Assembly: GCF_002775205.1 (NCBI RefSeq)
Contig: NC_036453.1
Location: 15,003,594-15,067,593 of the forward strand
DNA: 64,000 bases
Direction: 5' to 3'
Origin: Xiphophorus maculatus
Lineage: Eukaryota > Chordata > Actinopteri > Cyprinodontiformes > Poeciliidae
Numbering within the stretch: the stretch's first letter is position 1; each line of letters opens with the position of its first letter. Shown one piece after another: positions 8,812 to 64,000 of this stretch. The notes beneath the pieces were generated by a model. It saw only the letters and a program-made list of their open reading frames with translations. It searched no databases and was not told the origin of the DNA. Made by a program: the position numbers and the translations under genes.

Positions 8812-9170
8812 TGTCATGTAACGGTGGTGTGAGGTGGTGAGGCAGACGCAGCAGACCCAGGTAAAGTGAAAAATGACGGTTTTAATGATAAATAAGTCCA
8901 AAATAGTCCAAAAACAACCAGGCAGCACGACTGAGCAGAAGCCAGGGCTCAACGCCGGTAGCAACTGGTAAATTGACTGGACAACACGAAGGACTGAACA
9001 CACCTTAGACGAGGACCCGACAAAGACGCAGACACACAGGTGGCATTAAATACACAGAGGGTAATCACAGAACCAGACACACCTGGGAACAATCAAGGGG
9101 CAGAACAGGACAACAGGAGACTCAAAGACACAGAAAACTCTAAATAAACACAGAAAAACAGATCCTGACA
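8812..9170 (-). mobile_element. Solo-LTR-like fossil, family shared with 36533-36882
   Basis: Begins TGTCATG and ends CCTGACA. It is flanked by nearly matching 5-bp repeats (GAACG, GAAAG). The interior aligns base by base for most of its length with 36533-36882, including the shared core AACCAGGCAGCACGACTGAG and the segment ACACACCTGGGAACAATCAA. On the minus strand it has TATTTAA and ATTAAAA-like signals, as expected of an LTR promoter and polyadenylation region. There is no internal region. Confidence 0.6.
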
Positions 9171-11120: not shown

Positions 11121-13052
11121 CACACAGTGAACGCTCAACCTGACAACATGAACTTTTACATAATTAAAAATGATTACTTGTTATTCATGCTGGTCCTCCA
11201 GTCGTTATGACCGTGTGTGTCTGTGTTGAAGCTGAAGGTTTCCATCATGAAACTTCTTCAAACTGATTTTACTGTCACTGCCTCAAATCACACAAAAAAA
11301 TAACATGTGAATAAAAACTGCACTAAGAAAAACACATTTAATAATCGGCTCACGAACAACAACATGAATTTGTCCGTGCTCTTCCTGACATGTCTTCCTT
11401 CTCTCCCTGTAAGGAATCAGACGTTTAAGCTTTAGAAAGGCTGCTGAGCTCAGAGGGAGCTGCTCTTTACGTCACCACAGAGTATTATGGGATGGATCGC
11501 GAGGAACCAACCCTGACAACCAGTCGCTCCATGTTGACCTTGTTCACTGAAAAGCTCTCAGGCTGTTGAAATGTCTGGGTTTTTTTACCAGTAGTAACAG
11601 GATCTGTACAAGCTGCTGATAAACGCTGATATCTCACACCTTTGACCTTTAGGTGGCCTTTAGCGAAATAAACATAACTATTGGAGTTAAAATTTACAAA
11701 CTCTATCAGAGGTTAATATGATACCATGGAAACACATAATGCCATCGCTGCAACCGAAACGTTTTTAGTGGTTCCTTCTTCTTCTTCTTCTTCTTCTTCC
11801 TTCTCCGACTGTCATGTTCCTCTTTTACAACTCAGTGATCACAGCTGACATGGTTCTTGTCAGCTGCTTAACAGCAACAATAATAATTTTTACTAAAGTT
11901 TGTCAAAGAATTCATAGGGTTATAAGAAAACAATATAAAAATCACCTTAAGAAAAGTACTAAACGCAGGAACTGATTTACTGACTTTATTTGTGTTTTCC
12001 TTGAGCTGGAAGAAAAAAGAAAACAAACAGAAGAGTCTGTATATTCAGATATGATCTTTTCACTTTGGAAACAGATTCAGTAAATAGATGGGCCTTTTCA
12101 TCAGCCAGTCTGGATTGATTTTAATTGATCAGGCAGAATGATTATTTGTGAACGATACCCTGATCACATTCAGAAACACAAACACACGTCGGCGATGGGC
12201 TGATGGAGCCATGCAGGCAGTGCTGGAGTCCCTCTGCTTGATCCCGACCGTCACTGACCTTTGACCCCTCCACTATGGAACATATCTGCTAATTTGGTGC
12301 ATTTGGCCGCATCCTGCATTGACTGGTTTTGATCACAGGTTTTTCAAATTCAGGTCTTCTTTTCTCCTTTGATGAACTGATGAATTTATTCTACTCCTCA
12401 AATTGGGAAGGTCTGCTCACAGAACATTAGACCGACCCAGACTGGCGTTTCACTGCCTATAAAGCACCAAACTGGCCATGAAGGCAGCACTAATGTCATT
12501 CAATATAAGGGTGAAATAAGAACAGATTCCAAACCAGAGTCCATTTCAGTCCGGCCCTTTGGGAAACCCCCCGATACTCCCGGTGGCCGACCCAATCTGA
12601 CTCCTGCTGAACGGTTCTCCTTCAGTAACAGTCAGCTCTTTACTTTAGGTCTACTTCCACATGTCTGAGCTTTAAACATGTCAGACAAACACACAGGTAA
12701 ATGAGTGGAGGTTGAATGTAGAAGCCAAACGATGCAGTGAACTGATGTCTGTCATGAAGAGGCAGCTGGTTGGACTGTAATCCTGCTGTTGGTGCTTTGG
12801 AGACTTTGAAAGGTTCATCATCAAGGTCACTGTCAGATATTGTATTTTCAATTTATTCTAATATGTTTTGCCATTTTTAACAAACTGGTTCAAATAACAA
12901 CTGGAAGCAAAAAAAAAAAATTATATAGCATCTTTGAAGTTTCTCTGATTTTATTGATGACAAATAAAAAAAAACACTCGGGTTTTACAGCATTACATTA
13001 TTGTGAGCTACTGGTCATATTTATTTATAAATAATGCTTTTGAAACAAATAT
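11121..13052. other. Intergenic with (CTT)n tract
   Basis: No gene is seen. A CTT microsatellite lies at about 11775-11803. The stretch separates the intronless receptors from the three-exon receptor array. Confidence 0.6.
11775..11803. repeat. (CTT)n microsatellite
   Basis: About nine consecutive CTT units. Confidence 0.9.
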
Positions 13053-14621
13053 TCACTGTGGGACAAAGAGTCTGTTCTTGCGAGCGGTTCTGGTAGAAAA
13101 GCGCTTGATGATGCTGGAGCGCAGGTCCTTACTGACCAGCCCGTAGATGATGGGGTTGATGGCCGGAGGGACGATGATGAACAGGATGCTGAGAAACTTC
13201 TTCATGTTTTTAGTGGCAGATGGAAATCTGTAGCTAACGATGATAATCAGCGAAGCTATTTCATAAAACACATAAACCACAAGGTGTGACGCGCATGTCT
13301 GGAAGGCCTTGGTGCGGATGCTGCTGTCGGTCCTGCCCTGCTTCAAAGCAGCTGCCAGGATCCTGATGTAGGAAAAGGCGATGATGATGAACATCCCTGT
13401 ACTCACAAACCAGGTCATGGCTAAACCTACAAAACACAGAACGGCACAGAATTACAGACGGTAAATAAATGCTACCGACAGAGCAGAGACCGTTCTGCGT
13501 TATGAGGCGGTGTTAAGTCTTGAGGTTTTCCAGAACTGAAGTCTGGGTTTCATCAATTAAAATACTTTATTTACACTCACCATAGATGTCGTTCATGGGA
13601 GTGGGTGTGCAGGCCAGATTCATTATGATCCGGTTGGTGCAGTAGACGTGTTGAAGGATGTGGCCGCACAGCGGGACGTTCATGTGGAAGGAGAAGAGCA
13701 CAGCGATGAGCAGCAGAGCAACGATCCAGGCCACAGCGCAGCAGCTGTGCAGCCGAGCCGAAGTCATGATGGAGTGATACCTGAGAGGCTCACACACTGC
13801 CACATACCTGCAGAGAGACAGAGCTGTCAGAGAACAGCCCTCACACACAGATTTATTCTAAAGGACCAGGCAAAATATAAGGGGATGTAACTTTATATGC
13901 ACACCAACTATCAATGAATTTAGAAACAGAATAGTTACATGCAATTATATTTCTTTGAAAATGTAAATAAAACACATCAGTTACATAACACCCTTGAATT
14001 GAACATAGAAATCAGTCATTTAGGAGCCGCTACATCCTTCAGACAGAGGCTGCTGCCCTGGTTGCTAAAACATGAAGGCCTGTGACATTAAAGAAAGGAA
14101 TATTTCTCTCTCAGAAGGAAAACAGGAAGAGCACGTTGAATGACAGAGCAGTGAAATGTTCAGGAATTTGCAATAAATATATTATACATTACAAAACACT
14201 GCAGGAACAACATAAACAGTAAGATAAGGACTGGTTCACCCCCCCACCTGTCAACAGCCATCACTCCCAGAATGGTCTGCATTGCAACGCCGTACGTGTG
14301 AACACAGAAACCCTGAGCAATAGCTGGGAGGTAGCTGATCTTCTTCTGCCCCATCAAGAAGTGCATCATGAGGCGAGGAAGCACCGCCGTGGCGCCCAGC
14401 AGGTCACAGACCACCAGGTGGCAGATCATCACAAACATGGGTCTGTGCAGGCTCCGGTCCGTCATGATGACACAGATCACCACACCGTTCCCCAGCAGCA
14501 CCACCATGTAGGCAAACAGGGCCAAGAAGAAGAAGAGCGGACCATGTCCTGGTGGAACGTCGAAGCCCTCCAGTTCAAACACAATCGGCTGAGTGAGAGG
14601 AGTGAATGTTAGGTTCTCCAT
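13053..14621 (-). CDS. Three-exon odorant receptor A, 324 aa
   Basis: Odorant receptor whose coding sequence is split in three. The exons on the minus strand are 14621-14248 (374 bp), 13807-13581 (227 bp) and 13426-13053 (374 bp), in total 975 bp with the stop. Intron 1 (donor GTGGGG, acceptor CTCTCTGCAG) falls after the second base of the Arg codon of VDRYVAVC (residue 125, phase 2). Intron 2 (donor GTGAGT, acceptor TTTTGTAG) falls after the first base of the Gly codon of DIYGLAMTW (phase 1). The joined protein has an N-glycosylation site NLT at 3, SLHRPMFVMICHLVVCDLLG, DRYVAVCEPLRY, a long second extracellular loop with the usual cysteines, KAFQTCASHL and INPIIYGLVSK. The ATG lies just downstream of an acceptor-like TTTCACAG, so a 5' non-coding exon is likely. 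It is head-to-head with gene B. Exon 1 shows no difference from that of gene C. Confidence 0.93.
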
Positions 14622-15945
14622 CCACAGCTGGACGGCTCTGTGAAACACAAGCAGGTTAAACTGTGATAGATTTACCAACAAACATGTTATATTGATGCTC
14701 AGTACAAGCTATAAAACTTAAAAGATACAGCTCTTTATGTTACAGAATGCAAACCAAAAGGTAATAAAATGAAATGTAAAGAATTAGTGTATGTCAGCGA
14801 TCACCTCAGCAGCAGAGAACCAAAGTTTCAGTCTGAGATGAAGGAGCGCCCTCCTCTCCTCTCCTCTCTCATCGCGTTGGTGCTGGTCTCATTTTTGAAC
14901 AAACTGACATGTCCGTTAAATGATGTCACTCTATATGATTCATTACCACTGTCGACTAAACCATGGAAACGGATTCCCCGCCTCCCACGTCCTACTGAGA
15001 TCTGTGTTTCTGGGTCTGGTACCAGAAATAAACCATGGATGGTTTGGGAGAAAGGCCTTCAGCAACTGGAGCGTTTACAGTTTGTCTGGGGAACTGGACC
15101 AGGGAGGCGAAGCGGTTTCGCCCAAATTACGCAGCTAAGCGCCTCAAACTGCCTCCAGGTCTGCGCTGTGTTCCTGTCTAGACATTTCTGTCGCACCATC
15201 ACCTCATAAGCCAAGTTTTACTAACGTCTGTGTGCCAATTTTATCCTTATCAGATGCTAACTCAAGATGGATACTAAACCCTAAACTGAAGCATAGAATT
15301 ATTTATTCAACCACACAAATTTATCAGAGAAACTAAAAGTTATCAAAGGATTTTAGGCTTTACTGGAAAAAGAGTCTTTGTCTTTGGATCCATGTAGAGA
15401 CATTCATACGTTTTTGTCTTTGAGAGAACAGACTCACAACTCGTGTGAATTTTTGCTTATAATTATTTAATTATCACACAGGCTTGTGTTCATGTATTTT
15501 CTGACAGGGGGGTTAAATACAAGAGAGACAATCAGGGTAAATTTGAACTTTGTCCTCTAAAAATGGAATAACATTAAAGGGTATTGTTGTTGGCTGACAG
15601 GCGGGGAGAGGTGGTGCTATGGGAAACCAGTAGATATGAAATGATTTAAATGGAAAACCTCCAGAAGGACGGAGAGACACTGATGCTCTAACAAGATCAG
15701 ATGTGAACATCCTCTCTTCATTGTTTAACATCACCTTTTGTTGTTTTCTGTTGATGTTTTCCATGAAGATTTTAGCCTCTCTAAGATTTTCCATTAAGTG
15801 GTGTTTAGTTTTCAGGTATTATTTAACAATCTGTGACCTACTTTTTGATGCAGATAAACTTGCTCTGTTCTTTTTATAGCAGCTTTATGTCTAATATACA
15901 GGAGCTTTTAACCTGCTTGTGTTTCACAGAGCCGTCCAGCTGTGG
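14622..15945. other. Intergenic region of divergent pair A/B
   Basis: This is the 1.3-kb gap between two head-to-head three-exon receptors. About 40 bases next to each ATG are mirror copies (TTTCACAG acceptor, then GCCGTCCAGCTGTGG), so both genes probably splice a 5' non-coding exon that lies in this gap. The promoters of both genes are expected here. No TATA box or other element can be named with confidence. The open frames around 14769-15209 and 15513-15794 resemble no protein I know. Confidence 0.55.
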
Positions 15946-17202
15946 ATGGAGAACCTAACATTCACTCCTCTCACTCAGCCGATTGTGTTTGAACTGGAGG
16001 GCTTCGACGTTCCACCAGGACATGGTCCGCTCTTCTTCTTCTTGGCCCTGTTTGCCTACATGGTGGTGCTGCTGGGGAACGGTGTGGTGATCTGTGTCAT
16101 CATGACGGACCGGAGCCTGCACAGACCCATGTTTGTGATGATCTGCCACCTGGTGGTCTGTGACCTGCTGGGCGCCACGGCGGTGCTTCCCAGCCTCATG
16201 ATGCACTTCTTGATGGGGCAGAAGAAGATCAGCTACCTCGCTGCCATTATTCAGGGCTTCTGTGTTCACACATACGGAGTTGCAATGCACACTATCCTGG
16301 GGGCGATGGCTGTTGACAGGTGATAAATCATGAAATTGTTGCTGGTATCTATGTTTGTATTGACTTTTTCTACATGCTAACATATTGACATTTTCTTCTA
16401 TTGTCCAAGAGTTAAACTACTATCCTACATTAATATGCATAGTACAGATAGAAGTGTGTTTTTCGCTGTCTCTCTGCAGGTATGTGGCAGTGTGTGAGCC
16501 TCTCAGGTATCACTCCATCATGACTTCGGCTCGGCTGCACAGCTGCTGCGCTGTGGCCTGGATCGTTGCTCTGCTGCTCGTCGCTGTGCTCTTCTCCTTC
16601 CACGTAAATCTCCCTTACTGCAGGCGAACCATTCAGCACGTCTACTGCAGCAATAAGTCCATGATGAATCTGGCCTGCGCTCCGCCTCTTATCAGCAACA
16701 TCTACGGTCAGTGCAAATGAGCAACTAAAAACAGACGACCATCAGAGTGAAACGGGGAACAACAAAAAGCTCATCTTACTGAAACATTTCCCACTTCTGA
16801 CAGTTGCAGGAAACTGACTGGTCCTGTAACTCTCTGTGTCTTACAGGTTTATTCATCACCTGGTTTGTGAGTACAGGGATGTTCGTCGTCATCGCTTATT
16901 TCTACATCAGGATCCTGAGAGCTGCTGTGAAGCAGGGCAGGAGCGACAGCAGCATCCGCACCAAGGCCTTCCAGACATGCGCATCACACTTTGTTGTGTA
17001 TGTCTTCTATGAGTTAGCCACACTGATTATAGTCGTTAACTACAGATTTCCATCCACCTCCCAAAACATCAATAAGTTTCTCGGCATCCTGTTCATCATC
17101 GTCCCTCCGGCCATCAACCCCATCATCTACGGGCTGGTCAGTAAGGACCTGCGCTCCAGCATCATCAAGCGCTTTTCTACCAGAACCGCTCGCAAGAACT
17201 GA
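15946..17202 (+). CDS. Three-exon odorant receptor B, 318 aa
   Basis: Exons are 15946-16319, 16480-16706 and 16847-17202 (957 bp with stop). Introns are short (160 and 140 bp) with donors GTGATA and GTCAGT and acceptors CTCTCTGCAG and CTTACAG. Positions and phases are those of gene A: phase 2 in the DRY Arg and phase 1 in the IYG Gly. The protein has NLT at 3, SLHRPMFVMICHLVVC, VDRYVAVCEPLRY, KAFQTCASHFVVYV and INPIIYGLVSKDLRSS. It ends ...RTARKN and then TGA. Exon 1 is nearly identical to exon 1 of A and C, differing at only a few residues near the TM3 end (for example AAIIQ for PAIAQ). Exon 3 is closest to that of A. Exon 2 from its variable half on (NLPYCRRTIQHVYC) is the most divergent of the five. 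The start follows a TTTCACAG acceptor. Confidence 0.93.
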
Positions 17203-18469
17203 TTTATTTTGTCCTGTTGTTATATTCATAAGGTGTTGGAGGAACGGTAGCTAGTAATAATGCAATGTTGTACAAGCAGGTCTGTTTGGGATCTGTTGTC
17301 TGCAGAATGTGAAAACCAGGCTGTAATGAGCTGCTGACCTCATAGTTTTAGAGGCAGAATCTCTACATGAAAGACAAAATAAAAGGTCAATAATCTGTAA
17401 CTGGTTTCATGTACAGCAGGATCTTCCCCAGTATCCCACATTTAGCGAAAATAAATCATGACACATGAAAGTAAGGCATTTTTTTGTTGACTGTCTTGAT
17501 GGTGAGCAGATTCATATTCACTATATGTAAAAATGAAGTTATAAATGCAGATCCAGACTAAGGGTCACAGGATCACTGTTGATGATTCTTTCATTCTCAA
17601 ATTTAAGCAAGCATCGTGTCAGTTTCTCACACTTGAAGAAAAACTTTAAATTGAATTGATTGATTGTCCTCACTTTTATGAAACTATCAGATATTTTAAA
17701 TCACTGAGTTTTTCTCGGTACTTTGAAGTTTCAGTATGAGCAAAGTCCAGCAGTTTAATGTTCGGGTTATTATTTAAAGGCTGTTATAACCTTTTTGTTA
17801 ACAGATGCCTTGGTTGGACAGTGCTGATGAAAAGCGGAATCTAGAAACCTGCATTAATTACATTGTTGATGGTTTTTGTAAACATGGAGATCTTAAACAA
17901 GTTTGCAAAAATAAAAAGTGTAATCTTTTTACAGCCACTTCGAGTTGCAGATGCCAACCTTGCTTTGAAGGAAGAACATGGTGTAGACCCGAGACTGAAA
18001 CCATTTATTCACTGATGTTTTAAAAATGGATGTTTTATTGCAATCTGAAGATACCGGCATCATTCTAAACAATGACTGTGTTGTCAAAGGTTTCATGTTC
18101 AAAGCTGTGACATCCTCCACTCACTTAGCCTGCATGTAACCCTGTGTTATAACACAACTTGCTTCAACAACAAGGGAACGTTCTCTGAGGAAAATGTTCA
18201 CAGTTGTTCATCTACGAAAATAAACAAAATTTCTGCACCACTGTCCTACGATGGTCCTGAGATGGTTTTTACCAGAGTTTATGTGGTTGTCCAGATTATA
18301 TAAGATTAGATAAGACAATCATCTGGATTGATTGTCGCTTTACATTATAAAAGTTTAACACTATCAATTAACAAGAAAGGAATTTCAGCGGTTCTGAAGA
18401 AGAAGGACGGTTGGTTCTGGTTGAGGAATACTAGAGCAGCTCTAGGTATGTGGCAGTGTCCCTGTAGGA
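17203..18469. other. Intergenic, nothing recognised
   Basis: AT-rich spacer between gene B and a LINE fragment. A 72-codon open frame at 17805-18023 has no recognisable content. Confidence 0.5.
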
Positions 18470-19075
18470 CCGGTACCAGAGCTCGGTACGGCAGTAAGTC
18501 GGGCTCGTTTCCAGTGAGGGTTGGACTCCGCCAGGGCTGCCCTTTGTCACCGATTCGCTTCATTACTTTCATGGACAGAATTTCCAGACCAGCCAAGGTG
18601 TTGAGGAGATCCGCTTTGGTGGCCTTAGGATCCAGTCTCTGGTTTTTGCGGATGATGTGGTCCTACTGGCTTTATCGGGTCATGATCTACAGCTTTCATT
18701 GGAGCGGTTCGCAGCCCAGTGTGAGGCGGTCAGGATGAGGATCAGTGCCTCCAAACCCAAGGCCGTGGTCTTGAGTTGGACTTGAGCTGCTCTATCCTAC
18801 CGAAGAGAGAGTTGAGCCCAAAAGAGAAGCTCTCAATTTACCCTTCGATCTATATTCCTACCCTCATCTATGGTCATGAGCTGTGGGTCACAGATAAAAG
18901 CAGATGAAATGGGTTTTCTCTGCAGGGTCTGGGCTCTTTCTTAGAGAGAGAAGCTCAGTCACCCAGGAGGGGCTCAGAGTAGAGCCTCTGCTCCTTCACA
19001 CTGAGAGGAGCCAGTTGAGGCTATAAATCCAGAGAATGCTCTGGGATGCCTTAGAACGAGCTACAGCGGTGGACA
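18470..19075 (+). mobile_element. Rex3 (RTE-clade LINE) fragment, degraded
   Basis: The plus strand encodes VRVGLRQGCPLSP followed by FITFMDRISR, the conserved reverse-transcriptase block of the teleost LINE Rex3. The bases around 18534-18557 match the complement of the published Rex3 RT primer region (CAGGGCTGCCCTTTGTCACCG), as I recall it. Downstream at about 18835-18895 lies the block SIYIPTLIYGHELWVT, and at about 18930-19010 remnants of the segment around SVTQEGLRVEPLLLHTERSQ. Frames shift between the blocks and pieces of the RT domain are missing, so it is a dead, 5'-truncated copy. The exact ends are uncertain. Confidence 0.8.
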
Positions 19076-20065
19076 TAGTTTGTCTGAAGTAAGACAATGC
19101 ATAAAGGAATGTACTTTTCATGGGAGTTTCAGCCACTACTGGAGCAAATCTTGCACAGTGGCCTCTGCGGTTTTAGCTGCAGGCTGATATTATCCGGCAT
19201 GCTTTGGGCCTGGACATTAAAATGTGAATTCTTCATTTTCTCTCTTTCTACAGAAAGCTTAACTCATGTAAGGCACAGAACAGACCGAAGAAATAAAGCC
19301 ACAAAAAGCCGTGGTAAATAGTCTTTGTCAAGTCCAAAGTGCTTCATGCTACTTTCAGACATGAACCCTCTGAAGGTGCCACCTGTTGGGTTCCTCTGAA
19401 CACCAGCAACCGATTACAGGACGAACTCCAACCACAAACCTAAAATCTATTAAACAGACCATTCATATCAATCAGTTGACTGGGTGAAAGCGGAACCACT
19501 TTCAACACTTTCACAAGATAATAAAAATATGTCAAGTGAATTAAAAATGAAGGCTTTTGAATTTCAACCAGGGATTTTAGCAAAACAAGATTCATGTCAT
19601 GGTCAGAAAGGTTCATAAACCGGAACATTGTCAGTGATTGTGTAATCATGAAGTTTACTGTTGGTGCCTGACTCAGTGATGCATGTTCAGGCTGCAGGTA
19701 GGGAGAGGCCGCGGTGTTTCCATGGTGCAACTGACAACAGGTGGCATTAAAAAGTGAAATCATTAAATGGACAACACAGTCCTCAATAATCAGAGCTCTG
19801 CCAACCAACAGGAGACTCTGATGTTACTGTTGGCTTTCTGTTGATGTGCTTCACTGGATATTAAAGGTTGTTGGTTTTGCTGACGTTTAATCAACTTCTT
19901 ATGAAAATAACAGTAAAGTCACTTGTATATATCCTTATAATCTTTTAGTTTATTACAGGTTGTTTTGTTATCACTTCAATATTGTTGTTTCCTTTGATTC
20001 TGCAGGAATAACCTGATCCGGATGGTGTCATCTTTCTGATTTTTGACAGGCTAGTACTTGTGTGG
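19076..20065. other. Upstream region of gene C
   Basis: No gene is seen. An acceptor-like TTGATTCTGCAG lies about 65 bases before the start codon of gene C and may end a non-coding 5' exon intron. Confidence 0.5.
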
Positions 20066-21456
20066 ATGGAGAACCTAACATTCACTCCTCTCACTCAGCC
20101 GATTGTGTTTGAACTGGAGGGCTTCGACGTTCCACCAGGACATGGTCCGCTCTTCTTCTTCTTGGCCCTGTTTGCCTACATGGTGGTGCTGCTGGGGAAC
20201 GGTGTGGTGATCTGTGTCATCATGACGGACCGGAGCCTGCACAGACCCATGTTTGTGATGATCTGCCACCTGGTGGTCTGTGACCTGCTGGGCGCCACGG
20301 CGGTGCTTCCTCGCCTCATGATGCACTTCTTGATGGGGCAGAAGAAGATCAGCTACCTCCCAGCTATTGCTCAGGGTTTCTGTGTTCACACGTACGGCGT
20401 TGCAATGCAGACCATTCTGGGAGTGATGGCTGTTGACAGGTGAAAAAACGGGTCAGGTGTGAGAACATTATGAACTGCAGGGATGCAAGTGTTTTGTAGT
20501 TTTTAATGTTCAAAATTTGCATTACAGGAGCATTTGGTGGATTCACTAATTTATATTTAACTTTAATAAATGTTCTTAAAAATGAAATAGTTGGATCATA
20601 TATTATCTTTCACCTCAAAGAGGAACATCCCTTTCTTTAACTGTTTATTTTAACAGAAATAAATTCAAAACAGATAAATGTCAAATACAAAGAGCATCTT
20701 AATGGGATCCCTGAGAAAGCAGCTTAAATAACAATTTAGTTAAAAACCTGTTCTCTGACAGCTCTGTCTCTCTGCAGGTATGTGGCAGTGTGTGAGCCTC
20801 TCAGGTATCACTCCATCATGACTTCGGCTCGGCTGCACAGCTGCTGCGCTGTGGCCTGGATCGTTGCTCTGCTGCTCATCGCTGTGCTCTTCTCCTTCCA
20901 CATGAACGTCCCGCTGTGCGGCCAACTGGTCCAACATGTCTACTGCAGCAACCGGGGCATCCTGAACCTGGCCTGCATTCCCACGGCTGCCAACAACATC
21001 TATGGTCAGGACATTTACTAAGAGGGAAGCTCCGTGTTTGATCAGAGACTGTATATGGAAATGTTTGAGTTGTCTTGCCTGTGTTTTTCAGGTCTGGCCA
21101 TGACCTGGTCTGTGAGCACCGGGGTGTTTGTCATCATTGCTTTTTCCTACATCAGAATCCTGAGTGCCTCCTTTAAACGGCAGAGGAGCAACAGCAGCGT
21201 TCACAGGAAGGCCTTGCAGACCTGTGTGCCTCATCTCGTTGTGTATGTGCTCTATCAGATAGCCTCAGTTATCATCATTGTCAGTCTCAGGTTCCCCTCT
21301 GTCTCCCAGAACATCAGGAAGTTCTTTAGCATCCTCTTCATCATAGTTCCACCAGCTCTCAACCCCATCATCTACGGTCTGGTCAGCAAAGACTTACGAT
21401 CCGGCGTTACGAAGCTTTTCTCCTTGCAAGTCATGAGAGTGTGTCACAAGGAGTGA
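20066..21456 (+). CDS. Three-exon odorant receptor C, 321 aa
   Basis: Exons are 20066-20439, 20778-21004 and 21092-21456 (966 bp with stop). Introns are 338 and 87 bp, with donors GTGAAA and GTCAGG and acceptors CTCTCTGCAG and TTTTTCAG, and the phases are the same as in gene A (2, then 1). I see no difference from exon 1 of gene A over all 374 bases, yet identity stops a few bases outside the exon on both sides. Exon 2 resembles D and E at its variable end (HMNVPLCGQLVQHVYC, ANNIYG). Exon 3 encodes LAMTWSVSTGVFVIIAF, KALQTCVPHLVVYV and LNPIIYGLVSKDLRSG, with a slightly longer tail. The ATG follows only nine bases of sequence shared with A/B; upstream DNA is unrelated to theirs. Confidence 0.93.
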
Positions 21457-23074
21457 CACACACAGATGTCTCCCAACAGAAACACCAAACTGATCAAACC
21501 CTGCAGAACACGCCGGGTGTTGCCTTCTCTTTGGGAACACAAAGAGAAGACTCTACAAAGAGTTTGGGAACTCTTAAGAAAGTCAAGACTGGCATGTTGA
21601 ATCAAACCAAAGTATCACACAGTGTTTTGTCCCTCTGTCAACAAAGAGGGACAAAGACATTGAAATCTCCCACAATTATTAAACAGTCGTAATCAATGAA
21701 TACAATGTCCACATATTTTGGGGTTTTGTGCAGAGTTCGTGTCGGAGCTTATTTCCCAAATATTCAAGAGTCAAATTTTCCCAGAAAAACCTTTTCACAG
21801 TTAATGAAGCATAAAAATTGCAGCAACCCCTTTATATTTTCTATTCTTACTTTAAAAGGTGTAAGTGCTGCCACAATTAGTACAGATTTATTATTGTCAT
21901 CCAACAATGTTTCTGTTGGAAACATGCAACGCCAAACACAACATTCATAATATTCTCAGTGATGAAGTCATGAAGCAGAACCTGATGATGATCTTATATT
22001 TGACAGAGACGGTTTAAGTGACTTTCTGCTGGATAATTGCTCCAGTTGAGGTTTGACTTTAGATGCTGCATTTAGTTTTTTCTGCTATCTATTAATGTTC
22101 TCTCTGTGATCTGGATGCATACTGTCCTGTTTCGTGCTGCTGGAGGCCAGATGCTTTCTGGAAGAATATACTGTAAATGCTAAGCTAATGTCTAATGGTC
22201 TATGGTATAAACTTAAATAAGACAAACTAATAGAAAAGAATAAATAAACTAAATAATTATCCCAGTTGATAAAATAATTGTATTGATGACAATCCACCAG
22301 GAGTAGACACAGGTTGCCTCATCGTTTGAACCAGCCAATCATTGACCTTCATCATTGTTAACGCGATAAAATATGTTCTCACTGTGCGATCATTGGCTTT
22401 TCTCTGCGTGAAGAAGGACGGCAGGCGGCAGGACGGCTGTGTGACCAAGAAATCCACTTCTGAATGTTTGGATAAACCAGCGAAGAAGAGACACTGTTCT
22501 GTTTTCCTTTAACTTGCAATAAACAGACGTGGAACGTTAAATAAAATGTGCTTTATTATTTCAATGAGTGTCAGGTTTAAATACAAAGCAGCTTGTTGTG
22601 TTCTTTGCACATGGATTGTTGGTTTTATGTGTCATGCTGGGTAAAAAGGCTTTCACATTTTCTGCCACCTGGAATAGTAAACTGAAGGATGTAAAGTTAT
22701 CACCTCTTATTACCTTGGGGCAATTCAATCCATTATGAAGGGCAGAGGCATCAGATCCCTCACCTCCTGGTACTGAACCTTTGTTTAGTTAAACGCAGTC
22801 TCTTGGTTGTGTATATTTGGTCTTAAATTTTAGATTTGCTGCTTTTTGCTGCTGTGTTGGCCCAGTAACTCTTGGAAAAGACGGTTTTAATCTCAGTTAA
22901 GTTATTTTCCTGGTTAAATAAAAACATGCATACACACCTCTATCAGTCACAGAAACCAAATGATGTGAGACCTCTTAGATCATGAGCGATCTAAACTTTT
23001 TACAGCATCTATAAGAAGCATAAGTTCCACCAGAGGAGTTAGACAATGTGAGAACAGCAGCTGCAGTGTTAGCG
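21457..23074. other. Tail-to-tail intergenic between C and D
   Basis: No gene is supported. Short open frames at 21441-21692 and 21696-21950 are in AT-rich 3' flanking DNA and have no recognisable content. Confidence 0.55.
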
Positions 23075-25002
23075 CTAAGTTTGGTTTCTTACTCTGGTTG
23101 AGAAACGTTTGACAAAGCTGACCCTCAGGTCCTTACTGACCAGTCCATAGATGATGGGGTTGAGGATCGGGGGAACGATAAAGATGAGAACTGTAAAGAA
23201 CTTTTTCATGTTTTGGGAAAGAGAGGGGAACCTCTGAATTAAAATCACAATCAGTGAAGCGATTTGAAAGAGAATGTAAACAACAATGTGTGGAGCACAG
23301 GTCTGAAAAGCCTTGCTGCGGATGCTGCGGTTTGTTCTGCCTTGTTTTAAGGAAACAGTCAGGATCCTGATGTAGGAATAGGCGATGATGATGAAGGTCC
23401 CTGTGCTTAAAGTCCAGGTCATCGCTAGACCTGAAAAGAAATAAAGACAAGTGGTTATATATCATAAATATTACAAGAAAATTCTAAAGCATCACTTGTG
23501 GCCAGATTTTTGTTTGGGTCCCAAGAGGAAATACATTTACTCATGTAAAGAGGAAATTAAGTGAAAATAAATTGGGAGGCCACTGCTATCATAGCCAAAC
23601 ATGTGGATTGCTGTATAATCATAGCAATAAAAATAAAATAATTATATTAATGTAGCTGCTGATGTTAGGCATGAGCACAATTTTAAAAAACGATGGAAGT
23701 ATTCCCCAAACTGTTTCTTCTGTTTCATATTCGTAAGGTTTGTATTTCACCTCTGGTCTAAAAAAATGAAGCACTGACCGTAGATGTTGTTGGCAGGAGT
23801 GGGAATGCAGGCCAGGTTCAGGATGCCCCGGTTGCTGCAGTAGACATTTTGGATGAGTCGACCGCACAGCGGGACGTTCATGTGGAAGGAGAAGAGCACA
23901 GCGATGAGCAGCAGCGCAACGATCCAGGCCACAGCGCAGCAGCTGTGCAGCCGAGCCGAAGTCATGATGGAGTGATACCTGAGAGGCTCACACACTGCCA
24001 CATACCTGCAGAGAGACAGAGCTGTCAGGGAACAAAATCCCTAAAGCTGAAAAACATACAGTCCTTAAAACTGTTCAATGTCAAACCTGAATTTGAAGGC
24101 AGTTTCTTAAAGCTAAAATTACTTTTTAATATCTAAAATTTCCTCAAAAGCAGTTCAAATGTTTATGACGGGCGTGCCGTGGTGGCGCAGTGGTTAGCGC
24201 GACCCGTATTTGGAGGCCTTGAGTCCTCGACGCGGCCATCGCGGGTTCGACTCCCAGACCCGACAATATTTGCCGCATGTCTTCCCCCCTCTCCTTCACC
24301 GTTTCCTGTCAGCCCACTGTCATATAAGGGACACTAAAGCCCACAAAAGACCCCATGGAGGGGTAAAAAAAAAAAGGTTTTATGACTGAACTGACCAACG
24401 ATTACAAGCGTTCAGATACAAGAGTAAATTCTCCCATGTAAGTTCAAAATCTTCTCAGATGTAATGATAATAATTCAGTCAATGTAGCACAAAAAATTAG
24501 TTTATTGCACTGATTTATAACTAGGATTGACTCTGTGATTAAACTAAAATCATTTCTTTAGTCTGCAGTCAAAACTTAGAGACCATTTGAACCATGAACT
24601 GCTCTGCTTTTACATCTTTCCTTACCTGTCATAGGCCATCGCAGCTAAAACAGTCGACATTGCTGCACCGTATGTGTGAGCGCAGAATGCCTGGACGATG
24701 GCTGGGATGTAGGCGATCTTCTTCAGCCCCATCAACAGATCCATCATGAGGCGAGGAAGCACCATTGTGGCCCCCAGCAGGTCACAGACCATGAGGTGAC
24801 AGATCATAACAAACATGGGTCTGTGCAGGTTCTTGTCTGTCATAATAACACAGATCACCACACCGTTCCCCAGTAGCGCCGCTATGTAGGCGAGCAAAGC
24901 CAACAGAAACATGAACGGTCCGTTGCCTGGTTGAACATCAAAGCCCTCCAGTTCAAACACAATCGGCTGGTTGAGAGGAATCACCGAGGTTTGGTTCTCC
25001 AT
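23075..25002 (-). CDS. Three-exon odorant receptor D, 319 aa
   Basis: Exons on the minus strand are 25002-24626 (377 bp), 24005-23779 (227 bp) and 23430-23075 (356 bp), in total 960 bp. Donors are GTAAGG and GTCAGT and acceptors CTCTCTGCAG and CTTTTCAG. Intron phases and positions match gene A (Arg 126 of YDRYVAVC, then the Gly of NNIYG). The protein starts MENQTSVIPLNQP with an N-glycosylation site at 3, then NLHRPMFVMICHLMVC, KAFQTCAPHIVVYI and LNPIIYGLVSKDLRVS. Intron 1 holds a tRNA-derived SINE (24170-24378). It is head-to-head with gene E. Exon 1 and about 450 bp upstream form one arm of a large inverted repeat with E, while exon 3 of the two genes is strongly diverged. Confidence 0.93.
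24170..24378 (+). mobile_element. tRNA-derived SINE in intron 1 of gene D
   Basis: The head contains polymerase III promoter boxes: A box TGGCGCAGTGGTTAGCGC and B box GGTTCGACTCC at the right spacing. An unrelated body with TTTGCCGCATGTCTTCCCCC follows, then an A-rich tail at 24364-24375. The 8-bp direct repeat TTTATGAC flanks it (24162-24169 and 24379-24386), as expected for LINE-mobilised insertion. It is antisense to gene D. The corresponding intron of gene E lacks it, so it arrived after the two genes separated. Confidence 0.9.
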
Positions 25003-25459
25003 CCAAAGCAGTACAGCCCTAAAGAAGCAGAACAGATTAAACCTCAGATGATAGAAATGTTGGCAGATTTATACTCTGAGAGTGACATACTGTAATAGAT
25101 CAAAACACAAATCTGTAGCTACATTTCACATAAAATCGATGACAGCGTATTACCTCCAAATCATGCAAATGACACTTAAATGGAGACAGCATCAAAGAAC
25201 AAAATGTGTGATCAAAAGCATCAGCAGCTGATATTAAATAACACCAAGTAATTATTACTCTATGTGTGATGGAGAGAGTCAGCCTCCTCTCTGCTGAGAG
25301 CGCTAACATTGCTCTGAGGTGTTGATGAAAACCTGCGTCCCTTTAAAGGATTTCCACGTGTTTTCAACACATTTCTAAACCTGGCGTTACCATGGAAACA
25401 CCAACTACAAGTGCCATTCAGGGGTATGAGTGCTAAGGTTTGTAGACCAGGATGAAAAT
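24622..25459. repeat. Left arm of 0.84-kb inverted repeat (D/E)
   Basis: The reverse complement matches 26235-27077 with only scattered differences. The arm covers exon 1 of gene D, its upstream splice-acceptor region and about 430 bp of 5' flank. Similarity stops within a few bases of the exon 1 donor site. Confidence 0.9.
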
Positions 25460-26234
25460 ATGGTAAATAATATCTCGCTTTATAAACTTTTATCAAAATT
25501 CTTGCTACAGCAGAATTTTAAGCTGAAGTCTTAAATTAAAAGCCTGGAAGCTTTTAATTGTATTTTGTGGATGTCCTGATAGTAAAGATGTACGGAGGTA
25601 CAGCCTTGATAACAAATGCATGGACTTATTTCACTCAAGCACAAGATTTCTAATTTTGCCAATATTCCAGAGTTTAAAAAAGGAAAACGGTTAAATATAG
25701 TATTCAAATGTCATATTCTGGTTAGAAATACACCAAGATTCTTACTTTACAATCAGAGGCCAATTTAATGCCAATTTAGTCATAAAGGTTTTTATGTCTT
25801 CAGAACATGCCTGTAATCTGAATGGATTCATCAGGATAGATATAACTGAGTATCATCAGCATAGCAGTGGATAACCCAAGAACCGCTGAAACAGAGAAAC
25901 ATAGATCTACTAATCCAGAATGCATTCCCAAAGTAATAATGGGATGGCTTGAGAACGCCTTTTCAGATCAGTCAGAGGAAGTAAGCAGTTTCTTCTTCCT
26001 GTCTAAATTCTAGTGAATGTTTTCTTCAGGTTCTTACTGCTCACCAGTATCTTGCCAATAATCATTCTTCTCTGGATGAGGTACTTTCAGTTTCCTTTTT
26101 CTTGCAGGTTTCCAGTACTCTATCTGCTGATGTTGCTTTTCTCTGACTATTTTCCCATCAGTGGTTTTTCTGCTTGAACTTTTAGAGTTAATCAGAACAC
26201 GCTTCATGATACGGCCTAGTGTCAAGTGTTTTCT
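25460..26234. other. Spacer between inverted-repeat arms
   Basis: 775 bp of single-copy, AT-rich DNA between the divergent genes D and E. Their upstream control regions should be in the arms and this spacer. No motif is named with confidence. Confidence 0.5.
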
Positions 26235-27077
26235 ATTTTCATCCTGGTCTACAAACCTTAGCACTCATACCCCTGAATGGCACTTTTAGTGGCGTTGGTG
26301 TTTCCATGGTAACGCCAGGTTTAGAAATGTGTTGAAAACACGTGGAAATCCTTTAAAGGGACGCAGGTTTTCATCAACACCTCAGAGCAATGTTAGCGCT
26401 CTCAGCAGAGAGGAGGCTGACTCTCTCCATCACACATAGAGTAATAATTACTTGGTGTTATTTAATATCAGCTGCTGATGCTTTTGATCACACATTTTGT
26501 TCTTTGATGCTGTCTCCATTTAAATGCCATTTGCATGATTTGGAGGTAATACGCTGTCATCGGTTTTATGTGAAATGTAGCTACAGATTTGTGTTTTGAT
26601 CTGTTACAGTATGTCACTCTCAGAGTATAAATCTGCCAACATTTCTATCATCTGAGGTTTAATCTGTTCTGCTTCTTTAGGGCTGTACTGCTCTGGATGG
26701 AGAACCAAACCTCGGTGATTCCTCTCAACCAGCCGATTGTGTTTGAACTGCAGGGCTTTGATGTTCAACCAGGCAACGGACCGTTCATGTTTCTGTTGGC
26801 TTTGCTCGCCTACATAGCGGCGCTACTGGGGAACGGTGTGGTGATCTGTGTTATTATGACAGACAAGAACCTGCACAGACCCATGTTTGTTATGATCTGT
26901 CACCTCATGGTCTGTGACCTGCTGGGGGCCACAATGGTGCTTCCTCGCCTCATGATGGATCTGTTGATGGGGCTGAAGAAGATCGCCTACATCCCAGCCA
27001 TCGTCCAGGCATTCTGCGCTCACACATACGTTGTAGTAATGTCGACTGTTTTAACTGCGATGGCCTATGACAGGTAA
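26235..27077. repeat. Right arm of 0.84-kb inverted repeat (D/E)
   Basis: Mirror copy of 24622-25459. It covers 5' flank and exon 1 of gene E. One difference changes residues in the TM3 region (TYVVVMSTVLTAM in E, TYGAAMSTVLAAM in D). Confidence 0.9.
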
Positions 27078-28714
27078 TCAAGTATGTTAAAGAAGAATGG
27101 TCTACATTAGTCAATGATATGATGCAGTTTGCTGAGTTTCCTTTTCCATTAATCAATAAAATTTTATTTGTATTGCACCTTTCAGCAGTAAAGCGTTTCA
27201 AAGTGTTTTACATCACAGAAACACAAAGTCCATCAAAAAAAACTTTAAAATGAAACAGAAAAATGAACTGAACTTCATTCACTGTTGTGTAACTAGGATC
27301 AATAAGGATGCATCAATTATAGGATTGAGATTATTTTTGTATAATAGGCCTTGAGATGATGTGAAATGGCACTATATAATTAACTAAATTGACTTTATGA
27401 AACCATCTTTTTCAGGAGGTGTTTTTAGGTTTTCATTGTGGTCTCTTGTTTTTAATTCTTTTGTGCTACAGTGCAAATGATTATGTCTAAAAAATAGTGA
27501 ATCAAAGCCTAAATGTGCTGTGATAGCAAAATTTAATGTATATGAAACTTAATGGAAATGGTTCAAATGTTCCGAATGTTTACTGAATAGTAATTTCTAT
27601 CCTTGAAACGCTGAACACGAATCAGACAATTAATTCCTCAATCTACACACCTTTTAATTGGTCAATTAAATCCTAAGACAGTAATGATGCTACACATAAC
27701 ACATTTTTTGAGGAAGTAGAAATAATCTTTAACTTCAAAACAGATGTAGAACCGTTTCTTTTGGATACCCTACTTCTGAAAAAGACTGTCTCTCTGCAGG
27801 TATGTGGCAGTGTGTGAGCCTCTCAGGTATCACTCCATCATGACTTCGGCTCGGCTGCACAGCTGCTGCGCTGTGGCCTGGATCGTTGCGCTGCTGCTCA
27901 TCGCTGTGCTCTTCTCCTTCCACATGAACGTCCCGCTGTGCGGTCGACTCATCCAAAATGTCTACTGCAGCAACCGGGGCATCCTGAACCTGGCCTGCAT
28001 TCCCACGCCTGCCAGCATCATCTATGGTCAGTGCCTCCTTTTGTCACGCCAGAAATAAGATGAAATGTTTGGGTACTGCTCCCTGCTTCTTATGAAGAGA
28101 GTGATCTGCTTAACAGTTGAATAACTATTTCCTGCTTGTAGGTGCAAAGAACTTAAAATTCAGTGAATGGTTGTTATAGTAGTTTATTCTAAGCACTAGA
28201 ATGCCTATTTTTCATTTCATTACTTCTTGATGAAACCGTTTGTTTGCTCTTGGGAAACAAAATACAAAGCTGGCAACGTATGCTACTCAACAGATAATTA
28301 GAATTTTAAAAATGCAGGATATATGATCACTTGTCTTGTTTGTTTGTCGTTTTTTCAGGTCTAACAATCACCTGGGTCTTCGGCGCATTGACCTTCATTC
28401 TCATCGCTTTTTCCTACATCAGAATCATGTGTGTTTCCTTAAAGCAGGGCAGAACAAACTGCAGCAAACCCAACAAGATTTTTCAGACCTGTGTTCCACA
28501 CATTCTTGTGTATCTTCTCTATTACTTCGCTGCATTGATATTAACATTGAGTTACACTTTTCCCTCTCTTCCCCAAAACATAAGAAAGTTCTTAAGCATC
28601 CTTGTCCACATCATTCCCCCGATCATCAACCCTCTCATCTATGGACTGGTCAGTAAAGACCTGAGGATCAGATTTATCAAATATTTCTCCATCAGAGTGA
28701 GAAACAAAACTTAG
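26697..28714 (+). CDS. Three-exon odorant receptor E, 319 aa
   Basis: Exons are 26697-27073, 27800-28026 and 28359-28714 (960 bp with stop). Donors are GTAATC and GTCAGT; acceptors are CTCTCTGCAG and TTTTTCAG. Phases are again 2 and 1, in the DRY Arg and the IYG Gly. The N-terminus MENQTSVIPLNQP is that of gene D. The exon 2 loop has PLCGRLIQNVYCSNRGILNLAC, almost the same as in D, but with SIIYG for NNIYG. Exon 3 is the most deviant of the family: TITWVFGALTFILIAFSYIRI, CSKPNKIFQTCVPHILVYL, then INPLIYGLVSKDLRIR. A splice acceptor TGCTTCTTTAG lies 16 bases before the ATG. All frames and junctions are intact, so it should be functional. Confidence 0.92.
27151..27240. repeat. Interspersed repeat remnant in intron 1 of gene E
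   Basis: Contains TTTATTTGTATTGCACCTTT and AAAGTGTTTTACATCA, a common motif pair of dispersed fish repeats. The family is not identified. Confidence 0.4.
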
Positions 28715-29689
28715 CGCTAACACTGCAGCTGCTGTTTGTAGACAACTTGACTCTTGTGGTGGAAGTGATTCTCTTTGTAGGTGTAACTGCCTTATGTAGC
28801 TAAAGTTTAAATAAGACAAAGTTCAGTAAGTACCCTTGACCATTTGAAATCATATAAATTGTTCAGAACTGTCCAGCTGAATCTGGTCCTGTTGTAAGGC
28901 TGAGACACAAAAGCAAAAGCCGCCACTGTCTCTTTGTGATGCTTGTGTTAATGTGTGAATACTCACTGCCCTCTGACCTCCCCATACAATCTTGCTTTGC
29001 TTTTTTAAACCTCTACATGCGCTTTAAGAATCCCAACTTTTTTTAAATCATTGAAACATCATAGGCTGCACATCAGTATATCCAGAATGATACTGATATA
29101 AACTGCATTCATCATCCAAATTTTCATTAGAAACATTTGAACATTTCCAAATTCATTCAGCAAAACCACAAACCATCACCATACTCACCAATTTACAAAA
29201 AAATATATAATTCTTTATTAATTTAAACATAAAGCTCAGAAATAATAAACTGTTTTTAAACACTTTTGCTGTCTTACAAGATGAGGCTCTTTGGACCCTG
29301 AGAGTCTTAAAGTTTTTACAATGTAAAACATTTTTAACTACTGTGTTCTTGAAATGTGCTCCACAAATAAACTTGACTGAATAATTATTACATTCTGTAG
29401 TTTTGAATTTTATCTAATAATTAGGAGTCAGATAAGTTCCATTAAAAGTGTGCCTGATATGACTTTGTCCTTTTGGTCTATTTGTGGAACCTAACAGTAC
29501 TGCATGGACTCAGATGTTATGGAAAGATTTATCTCAATATTGATGGTTCCAACGTCTCTCTCTCCTTGGGAAAATGTATTCCAGGGTGATGGGAAGATGG
29601 CTCAGACAGACTGTTCAACATCAAATAAGGGGAGGCAGTGTGGCCTTTTATGTTAGTTTTATTCACCTCCAGAATAACACAATTGCAAG
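28715..29689. other. Intergenic, nothing recognised
   Basis: AT-rich DNA downstream of gene E; no gene or known repeat is seen. Confidence 0.55.
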
Positions 29690-30560
29690 TGATCATTATG
29701 CCCCTGCAAGTCTGCCATATCTTTTTTTTCATACATAGAAAATGTACGGAAAATAACAATGGGCCATTTCTCCTACAAGGTCTAGTATTGTGCTGTATGC
29801 CAAATGTCCCTAAATTGCCATTGTCCAAAGAAACAAAGGGGACGTGGACAATGAATACCCAGAAAGAGGTACTTGTTGTCTGGATGCACTCTGTCAAAGT
29901 CCCATCCTTGGATGTTTGGGAACATCCAATTGAGGGAAAATCTCCTAGTGGAGGTCCAGGAGTCAGGAACCAATACACATCCAGGTTCCTTAGTCTAGCA
30001 GTCAGGGACCAATACACATCCAGGTTCCTTAGTCCAGGAGTCAGGAACCAATTCACATCCAGGTTCCTTAGTCTAGGAGTCAGGGACCAATTCACATCCA
30101 GGTTCCTTAGTCTAGCAGTCAGGGACCAATACACATCCAGGTTCCTTAGTCCAGGAGTCAGGAACCAATTCACATCCAGGTTCCTTAGTCTAGCAGTCAG
30201 GGACCAATACACATCCAGGTTCCTTAGTCTAGCAGTCAGGGACCAATTCACATCCAGGTTCCTTAGTCTAGCAGTCAGGGACCAATACACATCCAGGTTC
30301 CTTAGTCTAGCAGTCAGGGACCAATTCACATCCAGGTTCCTTAGTCTAGCAGTCAGGGACCAATACACATCCAGGTTCCTTAGTCTAGCAGTCAGGGACC
30401 AATACACATCCAGGTTCCTTGACCCCCAAGTCCGATTACTTTTCAAGGCATGGCTCTAATATTCTGTGTTCCCAAATATCAGATAGAAAACTCAACTTGT
30501 TCAGATGGAGGCCAACGGGATCAATGGGATGGAAGGGCCCATGGAGCCCAATTAGTTACA
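29690..30560. repeat. Paralogous repeat unit 1 with minisatellite
   Basis: Both sides of the minisatellite align with 31085-31680. On the left the shared segments are AATGGGCCATTTC, then AATGTCCCTAAATT, then GTCAAAGTCCCATCCTTGGA; on the right they are CTTTTCAAGGCATG, then GATGGAAGGGCCCATGGAGC. So the region is an old duplication of a roughly 0.6-kb sequence whose unit 1 has grown by expansion of the 39-bp repeat. Confidence 0.8.
29952..30420. repeat. 39-bp minisatellite, about 12 copies
   Basis: The unit is ACATCCAGGTTCCTTAGTC plus TAGCAGTCAGGGACCAATAC, 39 bp. Twelve copies can be counted by the CATCCAGG core. Copies mostly alternate between TACACATCC and TTCACATCC, hinting at a 78-bp higher-order unit. 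As 39 is a multiple of three, long open frames run through it on both strands; they are not genes. Confidence 0.95.
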
Positions 30561-34301: not shown

Positions 34302-35603
34302 CAGTGGCGGAGCTAGACTTTTTTTCAAGGGGTGGCCAAAGGGTGAGCAAGGCTTTATCAGAGGGGTCCATATACAAATGATGAACGAAAGGAAACTAAT
34401 ATTTTCTCACACACACTCAAATTAAAATGGTTTATTTAACAAAGATTTGCCATGACCAAACAAGACGTTAAACGGCACTATGGAACAGTGAGCATGTAAA
34501 TGTAAACTCAGAGCCCAGAATATGACCAAAAACAAATAAATAAAACTGGTTCCAAATAGTAAACTGCAAGACAATACCACCAGAGCTGACCAGCATCACC
34601 CTGGTGGTATTTATAAAGGTTTGAGAAACACTGCTATGGTCAAATAAGCTTTGAATGGGAACAACATACTGCAAACTCAAAGTCAGGATACACTCAAGAG
34701 AGCATAATTCTCCGATTTTGGTGGGAAGAAGCAAAATGTTTTACAAAGTCATCCATGTTGAGGGTATGTGCCCTCCTTGACTCAACACTGAGAATGCCAA
34801 GATGACTTAACCTGTCATCAGCCATAGTTGTTCTAAGGTGGTTTTTGATCAGTTTTAGAGCAGAACAACTTCGCTCACAGGACGCAGTACTGACTGGGAT
34901 AACAACTGAAATCTTACAAAGTCTAAACAGCTCATGAAAAACCTCTTTATAAGGTTCCAGGAACACAACAAAGTCAAGTAAAGTAGAGGGTCTCTCTAAC
35001 CCATTTTACTACTTAATAACTCTCTGTCAGCCTCTAACCTGCTGGTGATACACTTGGGCCTGGTGTCTCCTGGCTGGCTTCTCCAGGCTGGTCACTGCTG
35101 CAGGGTTCTGTCTGGTCCTGGTCTGGCCCTGGTTTTTGCCTCTTTAAGAAGAACTGGGAGATATTCCCTTTTCTCTTCATTTGGGCTCTACACAAAATAA
35201 GACAGCCTGGTATTTAGACTCCATGACTGTTTGGCAGAGACAACACTATTTTAACTATTATTTAAACTATAGTTTTTAGTTTTCTGTAGCTAGCTAAAAT
35301 AATACTAAATTAAAAAGAGATTAATTAAATGAATTAATATAACTAGTTAGGTTATAATTCAAATATGACATAGCCTACTTACATTTCAGTCATTATAAAA
35401 CTTAACAATGGTTTTTCACATATTCTTACCACACACATTTCAAGCAAGAGCTGGAAGATATATCCTGGCCAAATGAATAAAACATTACGATCTCATAAGT
35501 ATATTTTAAAATTACCATTTCCAGTAGGGTGGCAGTAGGGGTGGCAAGGGCTCTGTTGGGGGTGGCAAATGCCACCCCTGCCACCCCTCTGGCTCCGCCA
35601 CTG
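34302..35603 (-). mobile_element. hAT transposon remnant, 1302 bp, with TIRs and 8-bp TSD
   Basis: The ends are CAGTGGCGGAGCTAGA and, reverse-complemented, CAGTGGCGGAGCCAGA: terminal inverted repeats with one mismatch in 16. The 8-bp direct repeat CATCTCAT flanks it (34294-34301, 35604-35611), the hallmark length of hAT. On the minus strand, 34694-34966 encodes the hAT C-terminal dimerisation motif VIPVSTASCERSCSALKLIK, then LRTTMADDRLSHLGILSVES. The catalytic core is missing, so it is an internally deleted, non-autonomous copy. The paralogous block has the empty site with a single CATCTCAT (about 40054-40061). Confidence 0.95.
34694..34966 (-). pseudogene. hAT transposase C-terminal fragment
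   Basis: A 90-codon frame with the hAT dimerisation signature STASCERSCSALKLIKNHLR followed by RLSHLGILSVES. This domain sits at the C-terminus of hAT transposases and mediates dimer formation. The N-terminal zinc finger and the catalytic DDE residues are absent from the element. The style is that of the ZMYM/TTF-type hAT proteins of fish. Confidence 0.85.
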
Positions 35604-36532: not shown

Positions 36533-36882
36533 TGTCATGAAACGGTGCGGTGTTGGTGATGGTGAGGACCCAGGTAAAGATGAATAATGAATTTAATAAA
36601 GAATGTCCAGAAAATCCACACAACCAGGCAGCACGACTGAGCAGAAGCCAGGGCTCAACGCCAGTAGCAACTGGTAATTTGAATGGACCAGACGAAGGAC
36701 TGAACGCACATACGACGCTGACGAGACATGGACATGGACACACAGGTGGCATTAAATACACGGGAGGGTAATCACAGAAACGAGACACACCTGGGAACAA
36801 TCAAGGGGAGGACAGGACAACGAAGAGACTCACGGATGCAGAAAACAATAAATAAATACACAGAAAAACACGGAACATGACA
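36533..36882 (-). mobile_element. Solo-LTR-like fossil, 350 bp, 5-bp TSD
   Basis: Starts TGTCATG and ends CATGACA (TG...CA ends). It is flanked by an exact 5-bp direct repeat AATTC at 36528-36532 and 36883-36887. It is the same family as 8812-9170. It has landed inside the leader-like DNA that follows the LTR-like end at 36290-36451, so it is the younger of the two. Confidence 0.75.
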
Positions 36883-38940: not shown

Positions 38941-38955
38941 CTGGCTGCAAAACAA

Positions 38956-39289
38956 AGCAATGTTTAAGACAACAGACAGTTGGTCGAGAAGCTACATTAA
39001 ATTACAATTTCTTAAACAGATTTACTACAAAGATTAAATTAATTAACAATAATTACAGACAAAGGTAGAAGAAATGGACATTTAACATATTAAAAGAGCA
39101 GTACATCCAGCAGGTTGATACACACTGCATTCATGTAGAGTACCACAGTTGTTTTCCAGATTACTTGATGTCGATTGTATTTCTTGATGCATTTTTAACT
39201 TTAAGAGGGAAGGGTCAAATTGCCAAGATAATGTGTGATGTAATCTTTTGCAATGTTTACTTGCAACTGTCACTAGACAGTTCTTATTG
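38956..39289. other. 5' flank of the 37960-38940 receptor
   Basis: Intron or promoter DNA of the receptor. No motif is named. Confidence 0.4.
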
Positions 39290-47890: not shown

Positions 47891-47904
47891 GTCATGAAGA
47901 ATGG

Positions 47905-48602: not shown

Positions 48603-48649
48603 CATCTTGCTGTGGCAATCCACATTTTAGAAAACAAAAGAAATGTTTT

Positions 48650-63979: not shown

Positions 63980-64000
63980 TCCGTGGCATGCCCAACCACA

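Follow-up and report, generated by a model that had tools for sequence, protein, structure and literature searches.

We analyzed a 64,000-nucleotide (nt) stretch of the Xiphophorus maculatus genome (contig NC_036453.1, positions 15003594–15067593), referred to here as the window, in which five olfactory receptor (OR) genes, A to E, are clustered at positions 13053–28714. Each gene has three coding exons, GT-AG introns, and an intact reading frame. A and B are arranged head to head, as are D and E, and C stands alone. Intron 1 follows GAC AG in all five genes, splitting the Arg codon of the DRY motif (codon 125 in A, B, and C and codon 126 in D and E; phase 2), and intron 2 follows ATC TAY G in all five (phase 1). 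The predicted products are vertebrate ORs by their match to the Pfam family 7tm_4 (PF13853): gene C scores 166.8 bits (E = 1.2e-48, curated cut-off 27), and in a genome search the cut-off is exceeded by all 15 exons of the cluster. Several intronless OR genes are also present in the window.

Judging from similarity searches, the five genes seem to make up their whole subfamily in this genome. With the exon 2 DNA of gene C as the query, at least five matches are found, every one within the cluster. The exon 2 protein has at least 78 matches (both counts are lower bounds), of which A to E are 77–100% identical to the query; the remaining 73 or more are at most 42% identical, and nearly all of these lie in open frames of more than 300 amino acids. 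Four further genome stretches with partial OR matches show 23–35% matches to gene C, and an additional stretch adjoining the window shows 35–41%. Searches for relatives outside the genome gave six pattern matches for exon 1 of C against viral contigs and 176 for exon 2 of C against genome contigs, with no relative in either set.

The five genes are identical over an unbroken block of 104 nt, in which 14 nt from the end of intron 1 are followed by the opening 90 nt of exon 2 (Table 1). The initial annotation had described this identity as extending to silent positions, and it does. Among degenerate codons whose amino acid is invariant, 1 of 28 varies silently in the block versus 32 of 47 in exon 3, so that in silent divergence this part of exon 2 is unlike exon 3; outside the block, all three exons taken together, 64 of 152 such codons vary (Fisher p = 2.6e-5). 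Within exon 3, the protein-invariant motif IYGLVSKDLR, which we take to be transmembrane helix (TM) 7 and its cytoplasmic end, is silently variable at six of its ten codons. The proportion of nonsynonymous differences (pN) is 0 in the central window of the block versus 0.13–0.29 in windows of exon 3, and the longest protein-invariant stretch of the receptors runs from DRY through TM4. The final 14 nt of the intron are invariant at every position before exon 2 versus 4 of 14 before exon 3.

The initial view of exon 2 as homogenized and the rest of each gene as diverged holds for the block and for most introns but not for exon 1 of A/C and D/E or the end of exon 3 of A/B, which are homogenized as well. 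A 382-nt tract without a single difference is shared by A and C; it opens 5 nt ahead of the ATG and takes in the first 3 nt of intron 1. Their first exons show no differences at about 89 silent sites, whereas their synonymous divergence (dS) in exon 3 is 1.76, a saturated value. D and E form an inverted repeat of 863 aligned columns (97.5% identity) that contains exon 1 together with 23 nt of the following intron and 458 nt of upstream sequence, with 395 of 400 nt matching upstream of the ATG. The dS of this pair is 0 in exon 1 versus 0.36 in exon 3, and exon 1 has five differing codons, all nonsynonymous, four of them at alignment columns 112–120 in TM3. A and B share an identical tract of 116 nt near the 3′ end of exon 3 (+238 to +353). 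At the end of intron 1, 30 nt before exon 2 are common to A and C, and D shares 23 nt with them; otherwise, with the exception of intron 2 of D/E, identity between the introns of different genes is near the level of shuffled sequence. Between the two clades (A/B/C versus D/E), identity is 65–71% in exon 3, 79–80% in exon 1, and 84–96% in exon 2. The receptors are thus a mosaic of identity among introns that are nearly unalignable.

Table 1. Genes of the cluster and the tracts that they share, in window coordinates
Feature	Position	Strand	Exons	Remarks
OR gene A	13053–14621	−	14621–14248, 13807–13581, 13426–13053	open reading frame intact
OR gene B	15946–17202	+	15946–16319, 16480–16706, 16847–17202	intact
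OR gene C	20066–21456	+	20066–20439, 20778–21004, 21092–21456	intact
OR gene D	23075–25002	−	25002–24626, 24005–23779, 23430–23075	intact
OR gene E	26697–28714	+	26697–27073, 27800–28026, 28359–28714	intact
Invariant 104-nt block in A	13718–13821	−		
Invariant 104-nt block in B	16466–16569	+		
Invariant 104-nt block in C	20764–20867	+		
Invariant 104-nt block in D	23916–24019	−		
Invariant 104-nt block in E	27786–27889	+		
Exon 1 tract of A, identical to C	14245–14626	−		
Exon 1 tract of C, identical to A	20061–20442	+		
Inverted repeat, D arm	24603–25460	−		
Inverted repeat, E arm	26234–27096	+		
Exon 3 tract, A arm	13074–13189	−		coordinates derived from exon positions
Exon 3 tract, B arm	17084–17199	+		coordinates derived from exon positions

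Gene conversion acting on islands of exon had been proposed from the identity of exon 2, and both the A/C contrast in dS and the tests applied here favor it. A Sawyer-type permutation of polymorphic sites (custom script; five sequences, 10,000 permutations) returns tracts at alignment nt 1–524 for A/C, 1–248 for B/C, 842–984 for A/B, and 56–334 for D/E, each at 0 of 10,000 globally; with silent sites alone, the A/C and B/C tracts are still at 0 of 10,000. When four intronless ORs are added so that sites of exon 2 turn informative (nine sequences, 5000 permutations), all six pairings of A, B, or C with D or E yield a cross-clade tract at 0 of 5000, which spans exon 1 +369 through exon 2 +90. 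At third positions of exon 1 versus exon 3, edge-unlinked branch lengths are preferred over edge-proportional ones (2ΔlnL = 77.7, df 6, p = 1e-14), and the rest of exon 2 versus exon 3 is likewise non-proportional (p = 1e-6), the chi-square being approximate where branches are near zero. Because constraint alone would scale the branches together, uniform constraint cannot give this pattern.

Several results weigh against conversion. The A/B and D/E tracts lose significance in the permutation test when silent sites alone are used, and the A/B tract in exon 3 is not among the significant tracts of the nine-sequence test. The unrooted topology (C,(A,B),(D,E)) is rejected by no exon (p = 0.26, 0.83, and 0.99 for exons 1, 2, and 3 in the approximately unbiased test), and the case is therefore carried by branch lengths and tracts; conflicting trees are a common but not obligatory sign of conversion, and with five genes the signal sits in the branch lengths. 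GC content at third codon positions (GC3) is not raised in the block (0.67–0.70 versus 0.76–0.84 in the rest of exon 2 and 0.55–0.71 in exon 3), so the GC signature used for fugu protocadherins in the available text of PMC1852091 is missing here, although raised GC3 is a frequent rather than a required sign. At 104 nt, the cross-clade island is shorter than the efficient segment of roughly 200 bp that is quoted for yeast in PMC3924818. Finally, the case is built on only five sequences from one genome.

With these points taken into account, we consider it very probable that repeated interlocus gene conversion at the DNA level, confined to segments that are still similar enough, explains the mosaic. 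A to E would be an old cluster of three-coding-exon ORs, partly in head-to-head pairs, between which conversion would repeatedly copy segments of DNA. The introns and most of exon 3 would have drifted too far for strand invasion, leaving conversion possible only where the copies are still alike. Such places would be the 5′ half of exon 2 in the whole cluster, exon 1 among A, B, and C and also between D and E, the closing part of exon 3 in A and B, and the sequence upstream of D and E. As the longest invariant part of the protein, the segment from DRY to TM4 would have stayed similar enough for conversion across clades, and tracts placed there would alter no amino acid and would not be selected out. 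According to the accessible part of PMC3924818, sequences are believed to convert one another mostly when they are more than 80% identical, over tracts that average on the order of 10 to 100 bp. A threshold near 80%, together with DRY–TM4 as the longest invariant stretch, could give the observed tract map without further assumptions. The mosaic of identity, the contrast at silent sites, and the nearly unalignable introns are observed directly, whereas we infer how the sequences recombined, the threshold of similarity, and that uniformity was not selected for.

Purifying selection at the nucleotide level, through splicing enhancers, RNA structure, codon bias, or an overlapping function, could instead have frozen the start of exon 2 without any conversion. 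The block does start at a splice acceptor, the motifs QPIVFEL (exon 1) and AVLFSFH (exon 2) also have no silent changes in seven codons, and the proportion of synonymous differences (pS) is low, at 0.115, in the opening 20-codon window of exon 1. In addition, comparison of the intronless ORs with one another shows differences at no more than 2–8 of 12–18 same-residue degenerate codons of the block, and their GC3 over this stretch is 0.77–0.97; the few silent differences suggest a degree of silent conservation or codon bias in this region across ORs as a group. When compared with gene C, however, the same intronless ORs differ silently at 9–10 of 11–14 same-residue codons of the 30-codon block. 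Other exon edges are not frozen (pS is 0.34–0.56 in 20-codon windows starting at columns 100, 110, 190, and 200), the 104-nt block folds no better than shuffled sequence (z = +1.35), positions 12900–29000 contain no Rfam match, and branch lengths are not proportional between exons. This explanation also fails on the identity of A and C over the whole of exon 1 beside a saturated exon 3 and on the noncoding identity upstream of D and E. Silent constraint may add to the pattern, but the tracts in exon 1 and upstream cannot come from it, and as a replacement for conversion we find it quite improbable. A conserved protein encoded on the opposite strand was rejected on inspection: antisense open frames cover exon 2 in the five genes, yet they cross its variable part and unrelated intron sequence.

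Conversion could also have been templated by reverse-transcribed, spliced mRNA (cDNA), which would homogenize exons and leave introns untouched. Consistent with this idea, once the introns are spliced out A and C are identical without a break from 5 nt ahead of the ATG to exon 2 +147, and at the donor end of intron 1 their identity covers only 3 nt. Yet the tracts take in the final 14–30 nt of intron 1, sequence that splicing apparently could do without, judging by the varied acceptors of intron 2; D and E share some 400 nt upstream of the ATG, beyond a putative 5′ acceptor; and exon 3 of A and C was not converted along with the rest. The 14 invariant intron nucleotides and the D/E upstream identity favor DNA templates over spliced cDNA, which we regard as a very unlikely source of the pattern. 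An assembly artefact, in which near-identical exons were collapsed or copied by the assembler, is harder still to credit. The window does hold another near-identical tandem copy (44865–52544 and 56290–64000, 99.5%), but each copy of the block is flanked on both sides by its own distinct intron sequence within about 140 nt, and the assembly comprises 101 contigs for 704 Mb, suggesting long reads.

The remaining question is whether selection has directed conversion, favoring it in the segment that faces the G protein and blocking it in the parts that bind odorants. To place the tracts on the receptor, we mapped 15 named positions, 11 in the pocket and four in contact with Gs, from the available text of the OR52cs structure paper (PMC10703812); the mapping of a fish OR onto the human consensus OR52 is approximate. 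The Gs contacts R34.52 and Y34.53 fall in the invariant block, as do a VAIC-type motif and most of DRY on reading of the sequence, in agreement with the initial assignment of the block to the G-protein-facing side; the other two mapped contacts, at 12.52 and in intracellular loop 3 (ICL3), fall in exons 1 and 3. Pocket positions are spread over exon 1 (3.33, 3.36, and 3.37), the 3′ half of exon 2 (three), and exon 3 (five), and seven of the 11 vary in at least one gene, five of these in E. The differences between D and E at columns 112–120 of exon 1 adjoin mapped pocket positions, and three adjacent codons there encode Val in E.

The position of several Gs contacts named for OR52cs, the pN values given above, and the exclusively nonsynonymous D/E differences in exon 1, mostly in TM3, speak for selected conversion. 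Against it, the pocket-bearing exon 1 is itself homogenized in A/C and D/E, A and C carry the same residue at all 11 mapped pocket positions in spite of their saturation in exon 3, and the IYGLVSKDLR motif of exon 3 is not homogenized. The nonsynonymous divergence (dN) is lower than dS in exon 3 in all ten gene pairs, so diversifying selection is without support. Selection of this kind strikes us as unlikely. The initial annotation had proposed a uniform coupling module beside a diversifying ligand module. This modular reading is possible but unproven, and it is left unsupported by the full homogenization of the pocket-bearing exon 1 in A/C and its near homogenization in D/E, by the pocket agreement of A and C, and by the silent variability of IYGLVSKDLR. 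That conversion keeps the segment touching the G protein identical across the subfamily while the other exons evolve apart, with an exon–intron structure that partitions the receptor and is maintained by selection, is in our estimate improbable. If it were true, the exon–intron structure, which is unusual in vertebrate ORs, would divide the receptor into modules that evolve in concert and modules that evolve freely.

Other features of the window lie between or beyond the five genes. A reverse-transcriptase-like fragment (Pfam RVT_1, E = 0.00088, below the cut-off) is found between B and C at 18498–18782, and a C-terminal fragment of a hAT transposase (Pfam Dimer_Tnp_hAT, over the cut-off) at 34694–35005. 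A minisatellite with a 39-nt period lies inside an open frame at 29954–30420, and a dispersed repeat pair of 81% identity occupies 8812–9170 and 36533–36882. The OR fragment at 40952–41317, which matches a portion of the intronless OR gene 37960–38991 with 87% identity, contains two internal stops and is probably a pseudogene. The tandem copy at the end of the window aligns over 7711 columns, carries an intronless OR with an identical protein in both units (45315–46322 and 56740–57747), and includes a 30-nt minisatellite differing by one unit; the pair represents either a recent duplication or a retained haplotype.

A three-coding-exon OR family, family I, has been described in cichlids (Azzouzi et al. 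2014, PMC4122780). In the available portions of that study, the first intron of five of six genes interrupts the reading frame after GAC.AG, at codons 120–125 in phase 2, as in A to E, and five of six have the second intron at codons 194–201, ahead of TM5, the same place as here; in its table this second intron is for the most part listed as phase 0, following ATC.TAT, whereas the GT-AG rule places it one base later in A to E. The intron sites suggest that the two groups are probably the same family. The term "gene conversion" does not occur in the main text of PMC4122780. Among the literature matches listed (titles and starts of abstracts), none concerned gene conversion in intron-containing fish ORs, which is weak evidence of absence.

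A close parallel is provided by the clustered protocadherins of fugu and zebrafish, for which regional conversion is described (PMC1852091, in the part available; Noonan et al. 2004 as cited there). In both systems, tandem paralogues carry a near-identical region, silent sites included, beside a divergent recognition region, a pattern explained by repeated regional conversion. In the protocadherins, however, homogenization affects the 3′ portion of a single large variable exon, where GC3 is raised, whereas A to E have separate short exons, near-unalignable introns, and no rise in GC3 in the block. Conversion among chemoreceptor paralogues is likewise reported, as far as the excerpts go, for primate ORs (Sharon et al. 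1999, as cited in PMC1995454) and fish OlfC genes (PMC6588630), with a suspected instance involving the E and F families of zebrafish ORs (PMC1325023); those cases, as excerpted, involve mosaic or whole coding regions or unspecified tracts rather than exon islands between unalignable introns. Conversion also shapes the divergence of teleost duplicates, accounting for a median of 7–8% of post-duplication codon substitutions in 164 duplicates according to the accessible text of PMC10503786, a genome-wide estimate unlike the five-gene cluster considered here.

Overall, the cluster appears to exemplify, quite clearly, the established process of gene conversion and not a new one. It is a clean natural case in that introns mark the limits of conversion, and re-homogenized exons stand beside introns that can barely, or no longer, be aligned. 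The low divergence of exon 2 gives no date for the duplication of such genes, and OR trees built from their whole coding sequences mix histories. Comparison across several fish genomes could show whether conversion follows similarity alone or receptor function.

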